In this document: positions 42,666 to 52,381 of the stretch, in pieces
Layout of the letters: each line of letters opens with the position of its first letter
How positions within the stretch are numbered: the stretch's first letter is position 1
Assembly (NCBI RefSeq): GCF_014644455.1
Contig: NZ_BMKS01000012.1
Location: 1-64,000, forward strand
Origin: Caldovatus sediminis
GTDB taxonomy: Bacteria; Pseudomonadota; Alphaproteobacteria; Acetobacterales; Acetobacteraceae
Direction of reading: 5' to 3'
Length of the DNA stretch: 64,000 nt
Made by a program: the position numbers and the translations under genes
The notes under the pieces: model-generated
The model's database searches: none
What the model saw: the letters and a program-made list of their open reading frames with translations, nothing else
What the model was told of the DNA's origin: nothing

Positions 42666-42732
42666 TTGCGCCGCCAGAGGTTCCTTCCGAATTCTGTTGT
42701 GCACCGCCGAAAAGACGGAAGACGCTTCTGCC

Positions 42733-43263
42733 ATGGACCCCCACCCCGCCGCTGCGCCGCCCCGGCCGGATCCCGGGCGGCCCGGGCCGTCCCGGCCCGA
42801 CCGGCCGCGCCTGGACCAGATCGACCGGCGCATCCTGCGCGCCCTGGCCCGGCGCGCAAGGCTGACGAACGCGGAACTCGCCGAGGAGGTCGGGCTCTCG
42901 CCCTCACCCTGCTGGACGCGCGTGCGGCGGCTGGAGCAGGCGGGCATCATCAAGGGCTATGTCGCGATCCTCGACCAGGCCGCGCTCGGCCTGCCCGACA
43001 CGGTGTTCATCGAGGTCATGCTGGAGCGCCACGACCAGGAGATCCTGCGCCGCTTCGAGGAGAGCGTGGCCGCCATCCCCGAGGTGCTCGAGTGCCACCT
43101 CGTCACCGGCGAGTACGACTACGTGATCAAGGCCGCGGTCGGCGGCACCCAGGGCTACGAGGCGCTGCTGCGCGAGAAGCTCTACCGCCTGCCCGGGGTG
43201 CGCCACACCCGCACCAGCTTCGCGCTGCGCTGCCTGAAGCACAGCGTCTCCCCGGTGCCCTGA
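42733..43263 (+). CDS. Lrp/AsnC-family transcriptional regulator
   Basis: This 176-residue feast/famine regulator begins with an extra Pro-rich tail of about 25 residues. The AsnC-type helix-turn-helix follows (LDQIDRRILRALARRARLTN and AELAEEVGLSPSPCWTRVRRLEQ), then the RAM ligand-binding domain (VIKAAVGGTQGYEALLREKL). The HTH is of the Lrp type with the conserved CWTRVRRLE recognition helix. Divergent transcription from iorAB suggests it regulates that gene in response to aromatic or branched-chain amino acids. Such regulators also often control themselves. Confidence 0.93.
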   Translation: MDPHPAAAPPRPDPGRPGPSRPDRPRLDQIDRRILRALARRARLTNAELAEEVGLSPSPCWTRVRRLEQAGIIKGYVAILDQAALGLPDTVFIEVMLERHDQEILRRFEESVAAIPEVLECHLVTGEYDYVIKAAVGGTQGYEALLREKLYRLPGVRHTRTSFALRCLKHSVSPVP

Positions 43264-43301: not shown

Positions 43302-43499
43302 TCAGCGGACGCGGCGCTTGGCCTCGGCCTGGTCGAAGATGCGCTTGATGACGCCGTAGGCGAACAGCACGCCGAACAGCAGCAGGCCGAGGCCGAAGAT
43401 GGAGAGGCCGCTGTCCCGCGCCGCGGCCGCGGCGAACAGGCCGACCAGCGCGATCAGCGCCGAGAAGGCGAGGAAGAAGATGTTGGTCCCGGTCATCAT
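43302..43499 (-). CDS. 65-residue membrane protein coupled to ccoS
   Basis: This small protein was not recognised from any named family. Two hydrophobic stretches (about residues 7-25 and 30-50) predict a helical hairpin in the membrane, followed by a basic tail (IKRIFDQAEAKRRVR). Its ATG overlaps the ccoS stop codon (43496-43499), so it is translated as the last member of the ccoNOQPGHIS operon. That context suggests a role in cbb3 oxidase assembly or stability. The MMTG start has a second ATG at 43496. Confidence 0.7.
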   Translation of the reverse strand: MMTGTNIFFLAFSALIALVGLFAAAAARDSGLSIFGLGLLLFGVLFAYGVIKRIFDQAEAKRRVR

Positions 43500-43666
43500 C
43501 GCGCGGAGCTCCGTGGGTCGCGGCGGGTCTCGTCGTCGAAGAGGATGCGGCTCGCGGCGCCGTCGAGGTCGTCGTACTGGCGCGCGCGCAGCGTCCAGAG
43601 GAAGAAGAGCAGGCCGAGCAGGCCGAGGAACAGCGCCAGCGGCACGAGCAGGATCAGCGCGTCCAT
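43496..43666 (-). CDS. ccoS: cbb3 oxidase maturation protein CcoS/FixS
   Basis: This 56-residue single-helix membrane protein has the CcoS pattern: an N-terminal hydrophobic helix (LILLVPLALFLGLLGLLFFLWTL) followed by RARQYDDLDGAASRILFDDE, the family's conserved QYDDLxGxxxRIL motif. FixS/CcoS is needed to insert copper and haem into CcoN. It overlaps the end of ccoI by 13 bases and the next small membrane gene by 4. Confidence 0.93.
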   Translation of the reverse strand: MDALILLVPLALFLGLLGLLFFLWTLRARQYDDLDGAASRILFDDETRRDPRSSAR

Positions 43667-46050
43667 GCATGCGGCTCCCTTCCGGCGCGGAGCGCGTTGA
43701 GGATCACGATCAGCGAGGAGGAGGACATCACCGCCGCCGCGACCAGCGGCGTCGCGAGGCCGGCGACCGCGGCGGGCACCGCGACGACGTTGTAGATCAG
43801 GCTGAAGGCGATGTTCTGCCGCGCGATCCGCTGCGCCCGGCGCGCCACGACGATGGCGGCGGGGAGGGCGGCGAGGCCGGCCTCGCCGCGGAGCACCAGG
43901 TCGGACGCGGTCTGGGCGAGGTCGGTGGCCCCGGCGGGGCTGACCGAGACATGCGCGAGCGCGAGGGCGGTGGCGTCGTTGATGCCGTCGCCCACCATCA
44001 GCGGGCGGCGGCCCTGGGCGCGCAGCGCCGCGATGCGCGCGGCCTTGGCCTCGGGCGAGGCGTGCGCGGTCCAGGGCCCGGTGCCGGTCATCCGCGCCGC
44101 GTGCTCGACGGCCTCCGTCCCGTCGCCCGAAAGGAGCTCGGTCGAGAGACCGAGGCGGTGCAGCGCCGCGACGGCCTCGCCCGCATCCTCGCGCAGGCGG
44201 TCGGCGAAGCGGAAGGCGACGGCAGGGGCGCTGCCGGCGCGGTAGTAGAGCGTCATGCCCTCGTCCGGAGCCGCCGCGACGCCGCAGAAGGCGGCGCTGC
44301 CGAGCCGCTCGGCGCCGCGCCGGAGGCCGGCGCCGGGGATCTCCTGCACGCCCTCGGCGGCGGCGGCCTCGGGGCAGGCGCGCACCAGGGCGCGGGCGAG
44401 AGGGTGGCGCGAGGCGCGGGCGAGCGCGGCGGCGGCGCGCAGGCTGGCGGGATCGCGCGCCGGGTCGGGCAGCAGCACCGGCCGGCCCTCGGTCAGCGTG
44501 CCGGTCTTGTCGAGCACCGCATGGTCGGCAGTGGCGAGGCGTTCCAGCGCCGTCGGCGCCGCGACCAGGACGCCGCGGCGGAACAGTGCCCCGACCGCGA
44601 CCACCTGCACCGCGGGCACGGCGATGGCGAGGGCGCAGGGGCAGGTGATGATCAGCGCGGCGACCGCCGGCACCAGCGCCTCCTGCCAGGAGGCATCGAG
44701 ACCCGCCCACCAGCCAAGGAAGGTGCCAAGGGCGACCGTCAGCGCCACCGGCACGTAGAGCCGCGCCGCCTTGTCGGCGACCGAGACGAAGCGGCTCTTC
44801 GCCTGCTCCGCGCGCTCGAGCAGCCGCGCCAGGGCGGCGAGCGAGCCGTCGGTGGCGGCGGCGGTGACGCGCAGGCGGAACGGCGCCCCCATGTTCACCC
44901 CGCCCGCGGGCAGCGGGTCGCCTGCGGCGAACCGGCGTGGCAGGCTCTCCCCCGAGGTCGCGCTGGTGTCGAGCAGCGCCTCCGCCGCGTCGGTACCCTC
45001 GATCACGCCGTCGAGGCGCAGCCGCTCGCCGGCGGCGACCAGCAGGCGGTCGCCGGGGCGGACCCGCTCGACCGGCACGGCGCGGGTGGTGCCATCGGGC
45101 TGCAGCAGCGCGACGCTGCCCTCCTGCAGCGCGAGCAGTTCCGCCGCCGCCTGGCGCGCCTTGCGCCGCGCCGCGCGGTCGAGCACGCGGCCGGCGAGCA
45201 GCAGGGCGAGCAGCGCGGTGGCGCCGTCGAACCAGGTGTAGGGGCCGTTGCGCACCGCCTCGGACAGGCTCATCGCCGCGGTGGCGAGGACGCCGATCGA
45301 GATCGCCAGGTCCATGTTCGCGCGACGCGCGCGCAGGGCGTCGAGCGCCGAGCGGTAGAAGGGCAGGCCGGCCACGGCGATCACCGGCAGGCCGATCAGC
45401 GCGGCGAGCCAGTGCATCGCCGCGCGGGTCGCCTCGCCCATGTCCCAGCCGACCCAGACGGCGACCGAGACGAGCATCACGTTCATCGCGCCGAAGGCGG
45501 CGATGCCGAGGGCGCGGATCAGGGCGCGGCCCTCCTCGTCCTCGGTGGCGCGCAGGCAGGCCGGCGACCAGGGCGCGACGCGGAAGCCGAGGCGCGCGAG
45601 GAGGGCGGCGAAGTCGTTGGCGCGGGCGTTCGGCCCGCGCCAGGCGACGGCGAGCCGCCGCGAGGAGAGGCTGGCGCGGGCGCGCAGCACGTCGGGCTCG
45701 GCGGCGAGCGCCTGCTCGACCAGCCAGACGCAGGCGCCGCAGGTGAGGCCCGAGACCATCAGCTCCAGGCCGTGGACGCCGTCCTCGCGCTCCGCGCGCG
45801 CGAGCGGCGCGAAGTCGGTCGCCGGCGGCTCGGCCGCGGGCCGCAGCGTGCCGCCGGACGCGGCGGCCTCGCGCCGGCGGTAGAAGGCGTCGAGGCCGAG
45901 GCCGGAGACCAGCGCGTGCGCCGCCTCGCACCCGACGCAGCAGAACCGCGCCTGGCCCGGCGCGAGCGGCGCGCCGCAATGCGCGCAGGCAACCGTCGCC
46001 GGGCTGACGGCTTCGGCCGGCGCCGGAGCGATGCGGCCGAGCGAACTCAT
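43654..46050 (-). CDS. ccoI: Copper-translocating P-type ATPase CcoI/FixI
   Basis: This 798-residue P1B ATPase exports Cu for the Cu(B) site of cbb3 oxidase. N-terminal cysteine clusters (Cys22/25 and Cys37/38/41) form the FixI-type zinc-ribbon-like segment, and the HMA domain has GLTCGACVWLVEQ (Cys104, Cys107). The membrane CPC motif is at 470-472 (ITCPCALA), the phosphorylation motif DKTGT at 514-518 and the hinge GDGINDATAL near 710. Overlap with ccoH (ATGA) and with ccoS couples translation. Confidence 0.96.
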   Translation of the reverse strand: MSSLGRIAPAPAEAVSPATVACAHCGAPLAPGQARFCCVGCEAAHALVSGLGLDAFYRRREAAASGGTLRPAAEPPATDFAPLARAEREDGVHGLELMVSGLTCGACVWLVEQALAAEPDVLRARASLSSRRLAVAWRGPNARANDFAALLARLGFRVAPWSPACLRATEDEEGRALIRALGIAAFGAMNVMLVSVAVWVGWDMGEATRAAMHWLAALIGLPVIAVAGLPFYRSALDALRARRANMDLAISIGVLATAAMSLSEAVRNGPYTWFDGATALLALLLAGRVLDRAARRKARQAAAELLALQEGSVALLQPDGTTRAVPVERVRPGDRLLVAAGERLRLDGVIEGTDAAEALLDTSATSGESLPRRFAAGDPLPAGGVNMGAPFRLRVTAAATDGSLAALARLLERAEQAKSRFVSVADKAARLYVPVALTVALGTFLGWWAGLDASWQEALVPAVAALIITCPCALAIAVPAVQVVAVGALFRRGVLVAAPTALERLATADHAVLDKTGTLTEGRPVLLPDPARDPASLRAAAALARASRHPLARALVRACPEAAAAEGVQEIPGAGLRRGAERLGSAAFCGVAAAPDEGMTLYYRAGSAPAVAFRFADRLREDAGEAVAALHRLGLSTELLSGDGTEAVEHAARMTGTGPWTAHASPEAKAARIAALRAQGRRPLMVGDGINDATALALAHVSVSPAGATDLAQTASDLVLRGEAGLAALPAAIVVARRAQRIARQNIAFSLIYNVVAVPAAVAGLATPLVAAAVMSSSSLIVILNALRAGREPHAWTR

Positions 46051-46529
46051 CGGAGCAGCAGCCGCTGGCGGAGGTCGAGGCGCTCGCCGTGCGGTCCGGA
46101 GAGGGTGAGGCGCGCCTCCCACTGGCCGGCGCGCGCGCCGTGCAGCGCGGCGATCCAGCGGCCGGGGCCGGCCAGGGCGAAGTCGAGCGGCAGCTCCGTG
46201 CCCTCGAGCGGCCGCAGCAGCACGCCCCGCACCTGCGCCTCGAGCGGCCGGCCGTCGCGGTCGGAGGCGGCGAGGGTCAGCGCCTCGCCTTCCGCCAGCG
46301 CGATCTCGGCCCGCCAGCCGAGCGCGTCCTGACGCGCCGCCTCCGCGAGCACCTCGTTGTACCCCCGCCCGCGCTCGTAGGCGCGACTGACCGTCACGCC
46401 GGGGAAGGTGGCGAGCGCGAGATGGACCATCACCGCGTTCACCGCGAACACCGCGAGCATCCCGCCGACGAACACCCACGGGATCCAGGCGGAGCGGCGG
46501 GGGGAGGGGGGCGGCCTCGTCTCGTTCAT
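46047..46529 (-). CDS. ccoH: cbb3 oxidase assembly protein FixH/CcoH
   Basis: This 160-residue protein has a single N-terminal membrane helix (WIPWVFVGGMLAVFAVNAVM) and a periplasmic beta-rich domain with SRAYERGRGYNEVLAEAARQ, the typical FixH motif Y-x-x-G-x-x-Y-N. FixH/CcoH is required for maturation and stays bound to the assembled oxidase in some species. It overlaps ccoG at its start and ccoI at its end by four bases each. Confidence 0.92.
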   Translation of the reverse strand: MNETRPPPSPRRSAWIPWVFVGGMLAVFAVNAVMVHLALATFPGVTVSRAYERGRGYNEVLAEAARQDALGWRAEIALAEGEALTLAASDRDGRPLEAQVRGVLLRPLEGTELPLDFALAGPGRWIAALHGARAGQWEARLTLSGPHGERLDLRQRLLLR

Positions 46530-48043
46530 GGCCTGGGACCCAGGAAAATGCTGTCCTCGCGCGCGGCGACGCGGCCGCCCGCGTCGAGCAGGCGGAAGGT
46601 GACGGGCGTGGACTCCCGCAGGCCGAGGCCCGGCGGCGCGGTGACGAAGACGCGGTACTGGGCGAGCCCGTCCGGCCGCGCCGCGAGCAGCGGGCGCCCC
46701 TCGGCGTCGCTCTCCGCGGGGTCCTGCACCGTGAGCCGCAGACCCGCCGGGGCGTCGAGCGCGAGCGCGAGCGTCGGCGCCTCGCGCGTCTTGTTGGCGA
46801 TCTTCAGGGTGTAGCCGTTGCGCACGCCGCCGTCCGCGAGACGCACGAAGGTCGGTGCGCGGTCGTGGATCACCGTCACGCTCAGCGTCTCGCGCAGCAG
46901 GAGGGCGGTGAGCATGGCGAGGCCGACGGCGGAGAGCATTCCCGCATAGACCAGGGTGCGCGGGCGGATGACGCGGGGCGCCTTGCGCGCCGCCATGCCG
47001 CGGGCGAAGCGCTGGGGCCCGGGCGGCAGATTCGCCACCGCGGCCTCGCTGGCGGCGAGGTTGCTGAGCGTCTCGAAGGCGATCAGCCCCTTCGGGCGGC
47101 CGAGCCGCTCCATGATCTGGTCGCAGGCGTCTATGCAGAGGCCGCAGCCGATGCATTCGAGCTGCTGGCCGTCGCGGATGTCTATGCCGGTGGGGCAGAC
47201 ATGGACGCAGGCGTAGCAGTCCACGCAGTCGCCCACGCCCTGCGCCTTCGCCTTGCCGCGCGGCTCGCCGCGCCAGGCGCGGTAGGAGACGACGAGCGAG
47301 TGCTCGTCGAGCATCGCCGCCTGGAAGCGCGGCCAGGGGCACATGTAGGTGCAGACCTGCTCGCGCGCCCAGCCGGCGAGGACGTAGGTGGTCGCGGTGA
47401 ACAGGCCGAAGAAGAAGTAGACGCGGGCGGAGGCGGTGCCGGTCAGGATCTCCCGCGTCACCGTCGGCGCGTCGTTGAAGTACATGATCCAGGCGCCGCC
47501 GGTGGCCGCGGCGATGCCGAGCCAGGCGGCGTGCTTGGCGGCCTTCCTCGCCCACTTCGCCGCCGTCCAGGGCGCCTTGTCGAGGCGCATGCGCTCCACC
47601 CGGTCGCCCTCGATCAGCCGCTCGACCCACATGAAGAGGTCGGTCCAGACGGTCTGCGGGCAGGTGAAGCCGCACCACAGCCGGCCGAACAGCGAGGAGA
47701 CGGCGAATAGCGCGATGGCGCCGAGGATCAGCGCGCCGGCGAGGAAGTAGATCTCCTGCGGCCAGAGCTCGATCCAGAGGAAGAACAGGCGCGCATTGGC
47801 GATGTCCACCAGCACCGCCTGGTCGGGCACGCCGGACCCGCGGTCCCAGCGCAGCCAGGGCACGACGTAGTAGAGGCCGAGGCAGAGCGCGAGCACCGCC
47901 CACTTGATGCGGCGGACCGGGCCGCGCACGGCCTTCGGGTAGACCTTCTGGCGGTCGGCGTAGAGCGGCAGGTCCGCCGCCGGCGCCGGGCTCGCCGCCG
48001 CCGGCCGTGCCTGCAGCCGCTCCGGCGCCTTCATCTCGGACAT
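46526..48043 (-). CDS. ccoG: Cupric reductase CcoG/FixG (polyferredoxin)
   Basis: This 505-residue membrane polyferredoxin reduces Cu(II) for cbb3 biogenesis. After an N-terminal helix (AVLALCLGLYYVVPWL) come further helices and the cysteine motifs LWCGFTCPQTVW, GDCVDCYACVHVCPTG and CIGCGLCIDACD, which bind two [4Fe-4S] clusters. A C-terminal periplasmic Ig-like domain (about 390-500) follows the last helix. The gene begins 16 bases after ccoP. Confidence 0.95.
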   Translation of the reverse strand: MSEMKAPERLQARPAAASPAPAADLPLYADRQKVYPKAVRGPVRRIKWAVLALCLGLYYVVPWLRWDRGSGVPDQAVLVDIANARLFFLWIELWPQEIYFLAGALILGAIALFAVSSLFGRLWCGFTCPQTVWTDLFMWVERLIEGDRVERMRLDKAPWTAAKWARKAAKHAAWLGIAAATGGAWIMYFNDAPTVTREILTGTASARVYFFFGLFTATTYVLAGWAREQVCTYMCPWPRFQAAMLDEHSLVVSYRAWRGEPRGKAKAQGVGDCVDCYACVHVCPTGIDIRDGQQLECIGCGLCIDACDQIMERLGRPKGLIAFETLSNLAASEAAVANLPPGPQRFARGMAARKAPRVIRPRTLVYAGMLSAVGLAMLTALLLRETLSVTVIHDRAPTFVRLADGGVRNGYTLKIANKTREAPTLALALDAPAGLRLTVQDPAESDAEGRPLLAARPDGLAQYRVFVTAPPGLGLRESTPVTFRLLDAGGRVAAREDSIFLGPRP

Positions 48044-48059: not shown

Positions 48060-48929
48060 CTATTCGCCGCCGCCCAGGGCGTGGACGTAGACGGTGAGCA
48101 TGTTGATCACCGCCGGGTCGAGCCGCCCCTGCCAGGCCGGCATCACGCCGCCGCGCGAGAAGGCGATGCTGCGCACGACCGAGGCCTTGTCGCCGCCGTA
48201 GAGCCACACCTGGTCGGACAGGCGCGGCGCGCCGAGCTCGCGGTTGCCCTCGCCGCGCTCGCCGTGGCAGCTCGCGCAGTTCTCGGCGTAGATCGCGGCG
48301 CCGCGCGCCGCCGCCGCCTGGTCGCCGGCGCGGCCGGAGAGCGAGAGCACGTATTCCGCGACGTCGTTCACCTGCGCCGCGCTCAGCAGGCCGTCGGCGA
48401 GGAAGCGCGGCATCTGCGACTGGCGCGCCCGCTCGTCCTCGGTGTTGCGGACGCCGTGCAGGATGGTGGTGCGGATCGCCTCCAGGCTGCCGCCCCAGAT
48501 CCAGTCGTCGTCGGCGAGGCTCGGGAAGCCGCCCGGCGCACCCTGGCCGCCGGCGCCGTGGCAGCCGGCGCAGGTGTTGGCGAAGGCGGCGCGGCCGCCG
48601 GCGAGGGCGAAGGCGCGCAGCTCCGGGTCGGCCGCGATCTCTCCCGGCGTGGTCGCGCGCAGGCGGGCCATCATGGGCTCGAGCCGCGCCTGGTGCGCCT
48701 GCATCTCGCCCACGACCGCCTCGCGCGCGATCCACCCGGTCAGGCCCGTCGCCCCGCGGATCGGCAGCGACGGAAAGAGGATCATCCACAGCACGGCGAA
48801 GGCGATGGTCGCGTAGAACACCAGCAGCCACCAGCGCGGCAGCGGGGTGTTCAGCTCCTTGATCCCGTCCCACTCGTGGCCGGTGGTCTCGGTGCCGGTG
48901 ACGTGGTCCTTCTCGATCTTGGTCGGCAT
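48060..48929 (-). CDS. ccoP: cbb3 oxidase subunit III (dihaem cytochrome c)
   Basis: This 289-residue membrane-anchored dihaem cytochrome passes electrons from cytochrome c or bc1 to CcoO/CcoN. An N-terminal helix (LLVFYATIAFAVLWMILFP, about 35-53) follows the conserved HEWDGIKELNTPLPRWW. Haem c sites are CAGCH (120-124) and CASCH (218-222), each with a distal methionine (QMPRF; VMPAW). The gap to ccoQ is 11 bases. Confidence 0.97.
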   Translation of the reverse strand: MPTKIEKDHVTGTETTGHEWDGIKELNTPLPRWWLLVFYATIAFAVLWMILFPSLPIRGATGLTGWIAREAVVGEMQAHQARLEPMMARLRATTPGEIAADPELRAFALAGGRAAFANTCAGCHGAGGQGAPGGFPSLADDDWIWGGSLEAIRTTILHGVRNTEDERARQSQMPRFLADGLLSAAQVNDVAEYVLSLSGRAGDQAAAARGAAIYAENCASCHGERGEGNRELGAPRLSDQVWLYGGDKASVVRSIAFSRGGVMPAWQGRLDPAVINMLTVYVHALGGGE

Positions 48930-48940
48930 CGGGGCGCTCC

Positions 48941-49147
48941 TCAGGCCCGGCTGTCGTGCGGCGCGGCGCCGCGCGCGGCCCCCCCGCGCGGCTTGTCGTC
49001 GCGCAGCGGGATGTCCGCCTGCGCCTCGTAGTGGCGGCGCTTCGACGGGCGCAGGACCAGCACCAGCATCGCGACGAAGAGCAGGAAGAACCACACCACC
49101 CAGAGCGACCTCAGCGTCGGGTAGAGGGCGATCAGCGTGTCCATCAT
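48941..49147 (-). CDS. ccoQ: cbb3 oxidase subunit CcoQ
   Basis: This 68-residue single-pass membrane protein has one helix (LWVVWFFLLFVAMLVLVL), the basic stretch RPSKRRHYEAQADIPLRDD typical of CcoQ, and a short disordered tail. It stabilises the complex and is not itself redox-active. It lies between ccoO and ccoP in the canonical order. Confidence 0.92.
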   Translation of the reverse strand: MMDTLIALYPTLRSLWVVWFFLLFVAMLVLVLRPSKRRHYEAQADIPLRDDKPRGGAARGAAPHDSRA

Positions 49148-49166: not shown

Positions 49167-49898
49167 TCACTGCTGGCGGAGCTGCTCGGGCGTCACGTCG
49201 CGGAACTCCACGAGCGTGCCGAGCATCTGCAGGTAGGCGATGAGCGCGTCCATCTCCGTCACCCGGCTCGGGTCGCCGTCGAAGGCGGCCTGGCGCGCCT
49301 TCGGGTAGCGCGACTGGAACCCGCTCGGGTCCAGGTCGGGCCGCGCCTGCGCCACCAGGTCTGCGCGCGCGGCGGCGATCATCTCGTCGCTGTACGGCAC
49401 GCCGAGGCGGCGCAGCGCGCGCAGGTGCTCGGCGATGTCGCCGTACTCGAGGGGCCGGTCGAGGAAGGCGTAGGGCGGCATCACGCTGTCCGGCACGAGC
49501 GCACGCGGGTTGCGCAGGTGCTCCGCGTGCCAGTCGTCCGAGTAGCGTCCGCCGACGCGCGCCAGGTCCGGCCCCGTGCGCTTCGAGCCCCACTGGAAGG
49601 GCCGGTCGTACATGCTCTCCGCGGCGAGCGAGTAGTGGCCGTAGCGCTCCAGCTCGTCGCGGAAGGGCCGCACCATCTGGCTGTGGCAGGTGTAGCAGCC
49701 CTCGCGGACGTAGATGTTGCGCCCGGCGAGCTCGAGCGGGGTATAGGGACGCACCCCCTGGACCCGCTCGATCGTGGTCTCCACCGCGAACAGGGGAACG
49801 ATCTGCACGAGGCCGCCGATGGAGACCGTGATCAGCGTGAGCACGCCGAGCAGGATCAGGTTGCGCTCGATCTTGCCGTGGTCGAGCCAGCGGAACAT
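49167..49898 (-). CDS. ccoO: cbb3 oxidase subunit II (monohaem cytochrome c)
   Basis: This 243-residue cytochrome c subunit is anchored by one N-terminal helix. The haem c site is CYTCHS (68-73) in the segment [20 protein letters not shown], with a distal methionine further on in the conserved domain (SVMPPYAFL). It relays electrons from CcoP to the haem b of CcoN. It starts 12 bases after ccoN. Confidence 0.97.
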
Positions 49899-49910: not shown

Positions 49911-51431
49911 TCAGCCGGCCGCCGGGGCTGCGGCGATGGCGGGGGCGGGCGCCGCCGGGGCGGGCCGTGCCTCCTCCTCGCCTTCGTCGAGCGCCTCAGA
50001 GGTCGCGGTCCGCCACAGGTTGTAGGCCATGAGCAGCGCTCCGGTCAGGTAGAGCACGCCGCCGAGCGCGCGGATCACGTAGTAGGGGTGCATGGCGGCC
50101 ACCGTCTCGACGAAGCTGTACTGCAGGAAGCCCAGCTCGTCGTAGGCGCGCCACATCAGGCCCTGCATGATGCCCGACACCCACATCGCGGTGATGTAGA
50201 GGACGATGCCGAGGGTGGCGATCCAGAAGTGCCACTCGACCAGGCGCCGGCTCCACAGCCCGCGCTTGCCCCACAGCTTCGGCACCAGGTAGTAGAGCGC
50301 GCCGAAGGTGATGAAGCCGACCCAGCCCATCGCGCCCGAATGCACGTGGCCGATCGTCCAGTCGGTGTAGTGCGAGAGGGCGTTGACCGCCCGGATGGAC
50401 ATCACCGGCCCCTCGAAGGTGGACATGCCGTAGAAGCCGACGGCGACCACCGAGAAGCGCAGCCCGGGATCCGTGCGCAGCTTGTCCCACGCGCCCGAGA
50501 GCGTCATCAGGCCGTTGATCATGCCGCCCCAGCTCGGCATCCACAGCATCACGCTGAACACCATGCCGAGCGTCTGCGCCCAGTCGGGCAGCGCGGTGTA
50601 GTGCAGGTGGTGCGGGCCCGCCCAGATGTAGAGGAAGATCAGCGTCCAGAAGTGCACGATCGAGAGGCGGTAGGAGTAGATCGGCCGCTCCGCCTGCTTC
50701 GGGATGAAGTAGTACATCATGCCGAGGAAGCCGGCGGTGAGGAAGAAGCCCACCGCGTTGTGGCCGTACCACCACTGGATCATCGCGTCCTGCACGCCCG
50801 AGGCGGCGCCGTAGCTCTTGGCGTGGCCGAGGCTCACCGGCAGGGCGAGGTTGTTGCCGATGTGCAGCATCGCGATGGTGACGATGAAGGCGAGGTAGAA
50901 CCAGTTCGCCACGTAGATGTGCGGCTCCTCGCGCCGCAGGATGGTGCCGCCGAAGGCGACCAGGTAGGCGACCCAGACCACCGTCAGCCAGAGGTCCGCG
51001 TACCACTCGGGCTCCGCGTACTCCTTGCTCTGGGTGATGCCGAGCACGTAGCCGAGCGCCGCCATCACGATGAAGAACTGGTAGCCCCAGAACAGGAACC
51101 AGCCCATGTCCTCGCCGCCGTAGAGCCGCGCCCGGCAGGTCCGCTGCACGACGTAGAGCGAGGTGCCGAGCAGCGCGTTGCCGCCGAAGGCGAAGATCAC
51201 CGCGCTGGTGTGCACGGGCCGCAGCCGCCCGAAGGTGGTCCATTCGAGGTCGAGGTTGAGCAGCGGCCAGGCGAGCTGCGAGGCGATCACCACGCCCATC
51301 AGGAATCCGACCACGCCCCAGAAGACGGTGGCGATGGCGAAGGCGCGGATCGGGCCCTCGACGTAGTGTTCCGCCGCCCGCGGCGCGGTCCTTCGGCCGG
51401 CGGCGAGGGCGGCGGTGCCTCCGATGTGCAT
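49911..51431 (-). CDS. ccoN: cbb3 cytochrome c oxidase subunit I
   Basis: This 506-residue catalytic subunit of the high-affinity terminal oxidase has about twelve helices. Haem and copper ligands can be followed: His74 (low-spin haem b, [10 protein letters not shown]), His224 with His274 and His275 (Cu(B)), and His362 and His364 in [10 protein letters not shown] (haem b3 and b). The tyrosine of the cross-link lies in [12 protein letters not shown] (251-255). It pumps protons while reducing O2 at low oxygen. Start at 51431 after GGGGAGAAG. A perfect FNR box lies 85 bases upstream. Confidence 0.98.
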
Positions 51432-51515
51432 GCGGTGCTTCTCCCCGGGCGCGCGCCGCCCATCCCCGGCGGCCGGCGCCCACCAGCACGAGAGCGCATC
51501 GCGAGGGAGCTCTCC

Positions 51516-51529
51516 TTGATCCGAATCAA
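51516..51529. promoter_or_regulatory. Perfect FNR/FixK box between ccoN and the DUF2189 gene
   Basis: TTGATCCGAATCAA is an exact TTGAT-N4-ATCAA palindrome. On the plus strand a TAGCGT at 51551-51556 sits where a class II FNR promoter needs its -10, with the box centred about 41 bases before the predicted start near 51563. Leftward, the box is 85 bases upstream of ccoN with no strong -10 visible. Being symmetric, it could serve both directions. Confidence 0.8.
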
Positions 51530-51601: not shown

Positions 51602-52381
51602 ATGTCCATAGACGTCACGCCGGCGCCCCCGCACGCGCCCTCACCCATCCGCCTGGTGGCGACGGACCGGCCATGGACCTGGCTGGCGGCGGGCTGGCGT
51701 GACCTGATGGCCGCGCCGCATGTCGGCTTCACCTACGGCGCGGCGCTGACCGCCTGCGGCTGGGCGCTGGTGCTGCTGCTGATCTGGGCCGGCGCGCTGT
51801 GGGCGATCCTGCCGGCGACGGCGGGGTTCTTCCTCGTCGCTCCGCTGCTCGCGGCCGGGCTCTACGAGGCGAGCCGGCGGCGGGAGAGGGGCGAGGCGGT
51901 GGCGCTTGCCGTCTGCGTCCGCGGCTTCACCCGCAACGCCTCCCAGCTCGCGCTGATGGGCGTCGTCCTGCTGCTGCTGCACCTGTTCTGGGTGCGCGTG
52001 GCGGCGCTGATCTTCGGGCTGTTCTTCGGCCTCGGCTTCTCTCCGCCCCTGGAGCAGCTGCCGCTCGCGATGCTGCGCTCCGACGCGCTGCTGCCCTTCC
52101 TGGTCGTCGGCACCGGCGTCGGCGCGGCGTTCGCGGCCGTGGCCTTCGCGGTCTCGGCGGTGTCCATCCCGATGCTCGTGGACCGGGACGTCACGGCGAT
52201 CGAGGCGGTGCTCGTCAGCCTCCGCGCGGTCGCGGCCAATCCCTCCGCGATGGCGTTCTGGGCGGGGCTGATCGTGGTGTTCACGGCGATGGCGCTGGTT
52301 CCCTTCTTCCTCGGCCTGGCGTTCGTGCTGCCGCTCGTCGGGCACGCCACCTGGCACGCCTATCGCGATCTCGTCCGCTAG
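51602..52381 (+). CDS. DUF2189 integral membrane protein
   Basis: This 259-residue inner-membrane protein has about six helices. The N-terminal segment [20 protein letters not shown] and the central [25 protein letters not shown] and [12 protein letters not shown] motifs match DUF2189. Members lie next to cbb3 oxidase genes in many alphaproteobacteria, and this one shares the ccoN FNR box. Function is unknown; a role in low-oxygen respiration is inferred from position and promoter. Confidence 0.85.

Follow-up and report, generated by a model that had tools for sequence, protein, structure and literature searches.

A conserved two-helix protein encoded beside cco genes in Acetobacteraceae resembles the CcoN N-terminal extension and is probably a small part of cbb3 oxidase

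Introduction

Among terminal oxidases the high-affinity cbb3 enzymes have been studied intensively, and a cco operon of Caldovatus sediminis raises the question of what the small membrane protein encoded by its last frame might contribute to such an enzyme. The frame lies at 43302–43499 on the minus strand of the window analysed here, a stretch of 64,000 nucleotides (contig NZ_BMKS01000012.1, positions 1 to 64,000), and we use X as a working name for the 65-residue two-helix membrane protein that it encodes. A preliminary description of this locus had suggested that X may be an unrecognised assembly or stability factor of cbb3 oxidase.

Results

The cco operon and its last frame

On the minus strand the operon runs in the order N O Q P G H I S X, in keeping with the earlier placing of X as its last member. 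The features are:

43302..43499, minus strand: X, 65-residue two-helix membrane protein, last cco cistron (translation, AlphaFold2, overlap in relatives)
43496..43499, minus strand: ATGA, start of X overlapping the ccoS stop (window sequence; common to 41 of 53 members)
43509..43512, minus strand: GGAG, likely Shine-Dalgarno of X, within the end of ccoS (sequence; AAGGAG-like in many relatives)
43496..43666, minus strand: ccoS (TIGR00847, E 2.5e-22; FixS, E 2.6e-18)
43654..46050, minus strand: ccoI, copper P-type ATPase (E1-E2_ATPase, HMA)
46047..46529, minus strand: ccoH (FixH, E 2e-23)
46526..48043, minus strand: ccoG (FixG_C, Fer4_18)
48060..48929, minus strand: ccoP (FixP_N, Cytochrome_CBB3)
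48941..49147, minus strand: ccoQ-like small frame with one hydrophobic segment, distinct from X (named by its position in the ccoO-ccoP gap and by translation)
49167..49898, minus strand: ccoO (FixO, E 2e-93)
49911..51434, minus strand: ccoN, short form without a hydrophobic hairpin before the core (COX1; TIGR00780)
51516..51529, plus strand: exact box TTGATccgaATCAA upstream of ccoN, which we take to be of FNR/FixK type (the sole match with 0 mismatches)
51602..52381, plus strand: DUF2189 membrane protein, divergent from ccoN (family match)

The frame of X translates to MMTGTNIFFLAFSALIALVGLFAAAAARDSGLSIFGLGLLLFGVLFAYGVIKRIFDQAEAKRRVR followed by a stop codon (65 residues), and its ATG (43499–43497) has four bases (ATGA) in common with the TGA of ccoS (43498–43496), as the preliminary description had reported. 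That description had also likened this junction to those linking ccoG, ccoH, ccoI and ccoS; ccoG/ccoH and ccoH/ccoI do overlap by 4 bases each, but ccoI and ccoS, though coupled, overlap by 13 bases and have no ATGA. We read 53 members in the place after ccoS, with the window among them and the duplicate loci L032, L033 and L035 dropped: the exact four-base overlap was found in 41 (ATGA, once GTGA), the X start lies 15 bases or less from the ccoS stop in 52 and overlaps it by 25 in the remaining one, and an AAGGAG-like site stands before the start in many; the overlap exceeds chance and is conserved among relatives. Nei-Gojobori dN/dS values for 26 chosen close pairs were below 0.5 in 22, between 0.5 and 0.7 in three and 1.25 in one, the window's own pair (L001/L003) giving 0.68.

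The AlphaFold2 model of X is a confident helical hairpin (residues 2–26 and 30–64, mean pLDDT 91), which agrees with the two helices predicted earlier, and the basic tail noted at the same time proved to be a conserved basic end, KR(H)FD, after helix 2. In the profile built from 71 X members (A1) Gly20 is invariant, and Leu21, Phe35, Gly36, Leu39 and Asp56 are nearly so.

The palindromic FNR/FixK-type box, which lies between the divergently oriented ccoN and DUF2189 genes, suggests that the whole cco operon, X included, may be under low-oxygen control. Elsewhere an X-like gene lies directly 3' of a DUF2189 gene (L167), and in L168/L169 X lies ~1.1 kb from ccoN in divergent orientation. On the other side of X, a gene for an Lrp/AsnC-type regulator (42700–43263, plus strand) is convergent with it, and 38 bases separate the end of this gene from the stop codon of X.

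Searches against named families

Searches of X against Pfam and NCBIfam gave only matches below the curated cut-offs, and there was one weak PHROG match; X had likewise been recognised earlier as no named Cco protein. The best E-values for the 71 members were 0.0014 against Pfam (best 25 of 53 families listed) and 0.0022 against NCBIfam (best 25 of 26 families listed), and no family among those listed was common to more than 14 of the 71. A search of the PDB with the X profile gave a best E-value of 0.43, Foldseek with the X model returned generic hairpins (best E 0.42, none with E ≤ 0.001 among the best 50 of 250 rows), and plasmid records searched for X gave no match.

Individual candidates among the small Cco proteins were set aside in turn. 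TIGR00847 and FixS give no match to X, though they match the neighbouring ccoS; FixH, the family of CcoH, is not matched by X either; and FixQ is absent from the four matches that X has in Pfam at E ≤ 10 and was not seen for the 71 members among the 25 of 53 Pfam families listed, so that X is not a recognisable CcoQ. CcoM has one helix. With 65 residues and two model helices X also differs from CcoM in length, which is 36 residues in the available part of the description of CcoM.

Co-occurrence with cco genes in Acetobacteraceae

A search of 249 Acetobacteraceae genomes with the single X protein identified matches at E ≤ 0.1 in 128, and profile A1 gave matches at E ≤ 0.01 in 120, 52 of the 102 family genera having a profile match. 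We found ccoS in 106 and ccoN in 108 of these genomes, 115 having either gene, and a strong X match (E ≤ 1e-9) was present in 108 of the 115 cco genomes vs. 2 of the 134 without cco (G057 and G107); as the 249 genomes are related, a Fisher value for this co-occurrence is not a true probability. The cco genomes without a strong X match are G017, G082, G113, G115, G127, G161 and G222, with weaker X matches present in G017 and G115. Conservation of the frame and its linkage to cco genes, the lack of which the preliminary description had named as refuting its proposal, are thus both found within the family.

The strong matches, 113 in number, lie mainly at two sites in the operon: 52 are directly 3' of ccoS, where that description had advised looking for homologues, 53 are directly 5' of ccoN, and eight are elsewhere or on cut contigs. 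These eight include two with a CcoN piece directly downstream of X on a cut contig (G114 and G145; L042 and L081), one whose neighbours are unclear (G187, L043), the match of G107, which is a fusion to CoxB (L109; COX2 domain), and the second strong match of G129 (L115), which adjoins a methyltransferase; the last three are the second matches of G181 (L114) and G162 and the match of G057. In the second cco copies of two genomes (G067, contig C1, and G050, contig C24) a weak X match lies just before ccoN in one long frame, and these second-copy ccoN genes look as if they were fused to X.

X-like genes beyond the family

Profile A1 gave matches in 72 of 289 genomes of the class, and in a phylum-wide sample matches at E ≤ 0.001 occurred in 8 of 299 genomes, all of the same class. 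The class listing holds 92 X-like places (the own genome's two counted), of which we read 60 loci, the own genome's second match included. Ten lie directly after ccoS or ccoI, six directly before ccoN, six are divergent from ccoN within ~1.3 kb and two are in the wider cco region; in 11 the X domain is the N-terminus of the CcoN frame, and three (L177, L183 and L188) run into CoxB similarity in one frame. The remaining 22 of the 60 lie away from cco or coxB genes, so the X family is not exclusive to cco outside Acetobacteraceae.

Several loci, L109 and L115 of the family included, have other arrangements. CoxB of L109 (8679–9752), subunit II of a different heme-copper oxidase, has an X-like domain fused at its N-terminus. 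In L115, L176 and L185 (and L175) a methyltransferase-like gene comes after an X-like small membrane gene and is read in the same direction, with Pfam support for L115 only; these neighbours presumably resemble trans-aconitate methyltransferase. In L158, L161 and L186 yidC- or rnpA-like genes lie no more than a few kb from an X-like small gene (yidC by Pfam in L158, the neighbours in L161 and L186 named by eye), and L178 (8493–9281), L193 (8560–9069) and L195 (8775–9239) have two or three tandem X-like domains per frame. The own genome, G000, has a second, weak X-like frame (C15:69318–69503, L146; E 1.9e-4) on a contig other than that of the cco operon.

Likeness to the N-terminal extension of CcoN

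When the X profile was compared with N-terminal segments of 33 fused CcoNs whose selection used a CcoN model and nothing of X, the match had a probability of 96.7% (E 4.4e-10) and was co-linear over 56 columns, and against all 44 fused N-termini (of 45 fused sequences, one incomplete being left out) the probability rose to 97.8% (E 7e-13), vs. 1.3% or less for X against 64-column windows of the CcoN core. When 34 independent extensions were compared singly with X at Z=1000, 28 matched at E ≤ 10 and 12 at E ≤ 0.001, and the single-sequence likeness reaches the tail motif KRHFD in, e.g., L198 and L203. At the sequence level X resembles the N-terminal hairpin that is fused to CcoN in other Alphaproteobacteria.

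CcoN was also compared with chain sequences from the PDB. The alignment of the fused L199 CcoN with 6xkw_n (R. capsulatus) and 9g83_t starts in its extension, the 3mk7 chain (P. stutzeri) begins after the L199 extension, and for the window CcoN the alignment with 6xkw_n and 9g83_t does not start until residue 56 or 62 of those chains. In the part of the R. capsulatus account available, an additional helix is described at the distal edge of the oxidase, near TMH3/TMH4 of CcoN, and is tentatively equated with an extra N-terminal CcoN helix, "TMH0"; the model has one extra helix, not two, and the helix is termed specific to R. capsulatus (PMC7876108).

Fused and short forms of CcoN

Among genomes of the class 116 have ccoN, and the N-terminus of CcoN was read in 96 of these, hydrophobic segments being counted by a simple Kyte-Doolittle window; the window ccoN (L235) has 0 such segments ahead of the core, and most fused CcoNs read have two. 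The class 'fused' takes in the one-segment extensions of L210, L212, L225, L232 and L269, as well as L219 and L224, which need a GTG/TTG start. On this reading 43 genomes have only fused and 51 only short CcoN, and two (G342 and G421), which have X, carry a fused and another CcoN and are counted in neither group.

With both strands counted, X was present as a separate gene 9 kb or less from cco in 0 of the 43 fused-only genomes vs. 28 of the 51 short-only genomes, in a match list that omits matches inside long frames (mostly the fused CcoNs themselves). The 28 include G326 (5.6 kb, opposite strand, weak) and G512 (6.5 kb), and G291 and G516 are counted as near cco with X adjoining ccoI/ccoS on another contig. 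In eight further short-only genomes an X-like gene lies only elsewhere or on another contig, which gives any X match in 36 of the 51 (own genome counted), and none was detected in 15, one of which (G415) has an X-like frame below threshold. Four fused-CcoN genomes have weak X-like matches unlinked to cco, that of G260 with an E-value of 0.006 and those of G252, G364 and G387, at 0.0009 to 0.007, inside long frames on a contig other than that of the fused ccoN.

Within the family the start of CcoN is readable in 71 loci, X preceding ccoN in 51 and following ccoS in 20, and CcoN is short in these, the one apparent exception being an over-extended start. On a CcoN tree (FastTree, 164 rows) the fused state changes only twice, so the complementarity of fused CcoN and separate X rests on few independent events; on the same tree the position of X has shifted oftener (three changes for after-ccoS, five for before-ccoN and six for divergent).

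Discussion

Conserved beside the cco genes of most relatives examined that have them, and similar to the CcoN extension, X probably belongs to the cbb3 oxidase as a small part that has gone unrecognised. We think it likely that X is a small structural subunit of this enzyme, its hairpin being the equivalent of the CcoN N-terminal extension made as a separate protein. CcoN is short here, and the hairpin would be supplied by X, whose translation, presumably coupled to that of ccoS, would have it produced alongside the assembly proteins. The conserved basic end after helix 2 suggests that the C-terminus of X is in the cytoplasm, and both ends of the hairpin would then be cytoplasmic. TMH1 of CcoN starts from the cytoplasmic side; with the C-terminus of X there too, splitting or joining the two would alter no topology. 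We propose that X binds the membrane face of CcoN at the site of the extra R. capsulatus helix, near TMH3/TMH4 and away from complex III, and that it stays in the finished enzyme as a peripheral subunit which stabilises CcoN.

The assembly or stability factor first proposed for this frame is therefore kept in part: association with cbb3 oxidase, conservation and the want of a name all stand, and X may have a stability role, but a structural piece is favoured over a transient assembly factor. A factor of that latter kind, acting like CcoS or CcoH in the insertion of heme b or copper or in the joining of CcoN to CcoOP and then leaving, would fit the 52 matches in which X comes directly after ccoS, where the assembly genes of the operon lie, and the conserved overlap of the two frames. 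We nonetheless regard it as unlikely, since X directly precedes the structural gene ccoN in 53 matches and is covalently part of CcoN in other genomes, both of which suit a permanent part better.

We are more doubtful of a reading by which X belongs to a promiscuous alphaproteobacterial hairpin family, serving in cco operons as a generic membrane stabiliser that lacks a site of its own on CcoN, and resembles the extension through convergence of hydrophobic hairpins. A two-helix hairpin is a simple fold, Foldseek finds generic hairpins (among the best 50 of 250 rows), and X-like hairpins do occur beside a methyltransferase (L115, L176 and L185), near yidC (L158) and in tandem (L178, L193 and L195); however, X and cco almost always occur together in the family, the X profile matches the CcoN extension far better than it matches windows of the CcoN core, and in single sequences, e.g., L198 and L203, the likeness to the extension takes in the KRHFD tail. 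That the frame is an untranslated by-product of GC-rich DNA is highly improbable: such DNA yields many long frames in the window, and the window's own dN/dS pair is as high as 0.68, but sequence, start, Shine-Dalgarno-like site and position are conserved over many genera (52 of 102 with a profile match) and dN/dS is below 0.5 in 22 of the 26 pairs.

X has a near counterpart in the CcoN extension (e.g., that of R. capsulatus, 6xkw), which resembles X at the profile level, shares with it a conserved loop Asp and the association with cbb3, and differs in being fused to CcoN, X being a separate gene here. CcoQ/FixQ is likewise a small membrane protein of the cco operon, but a separate CcoQ-like frame is present at 48941–49147, and X has two helices and no FixQ match; CcoS and CcoH share with X the operon and the overlapping frames, but X matches neither FixS/TIGR00847 nor FixH. 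As a kind, the small accessory cbb3 subunit is already known from CcoM of P. stutzeri, a small membrane protein of its cbb3 oxidase, which in the part of the source available is set apart from X by its description (36 residues vs. 65 and two helices; PMC10433244). Our literature searches found no description of X among open-licence papers. Within their reach three things appear to be new: the family, its natural occurrence in split and fused form, and its relation to the extension of CcoN.

More tentatively, and with the odds against it, the hairpin may be a detachable module common to different heme-copper oxidases, occurring by itself or as part of CcoN in the C-type enzymes and fused to CoxB in another. 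If so, the shared module would dock at the edge of the catalytic core, outside the redox machinery, and play the same role in each, e.g., lipid or partner docking.

If X is indeed an overlooked subunit, the complete cbb3 enzyme would have to be defined anew for many Alphaproteobacteria. The tie between X and the CcoN extension would make concrete sense of a helix density that was assigned tentatively in a published structure, and predicts that this density is half of a hairpin, and the natural split/fused pair would be a clean basis for an exchange experiment.
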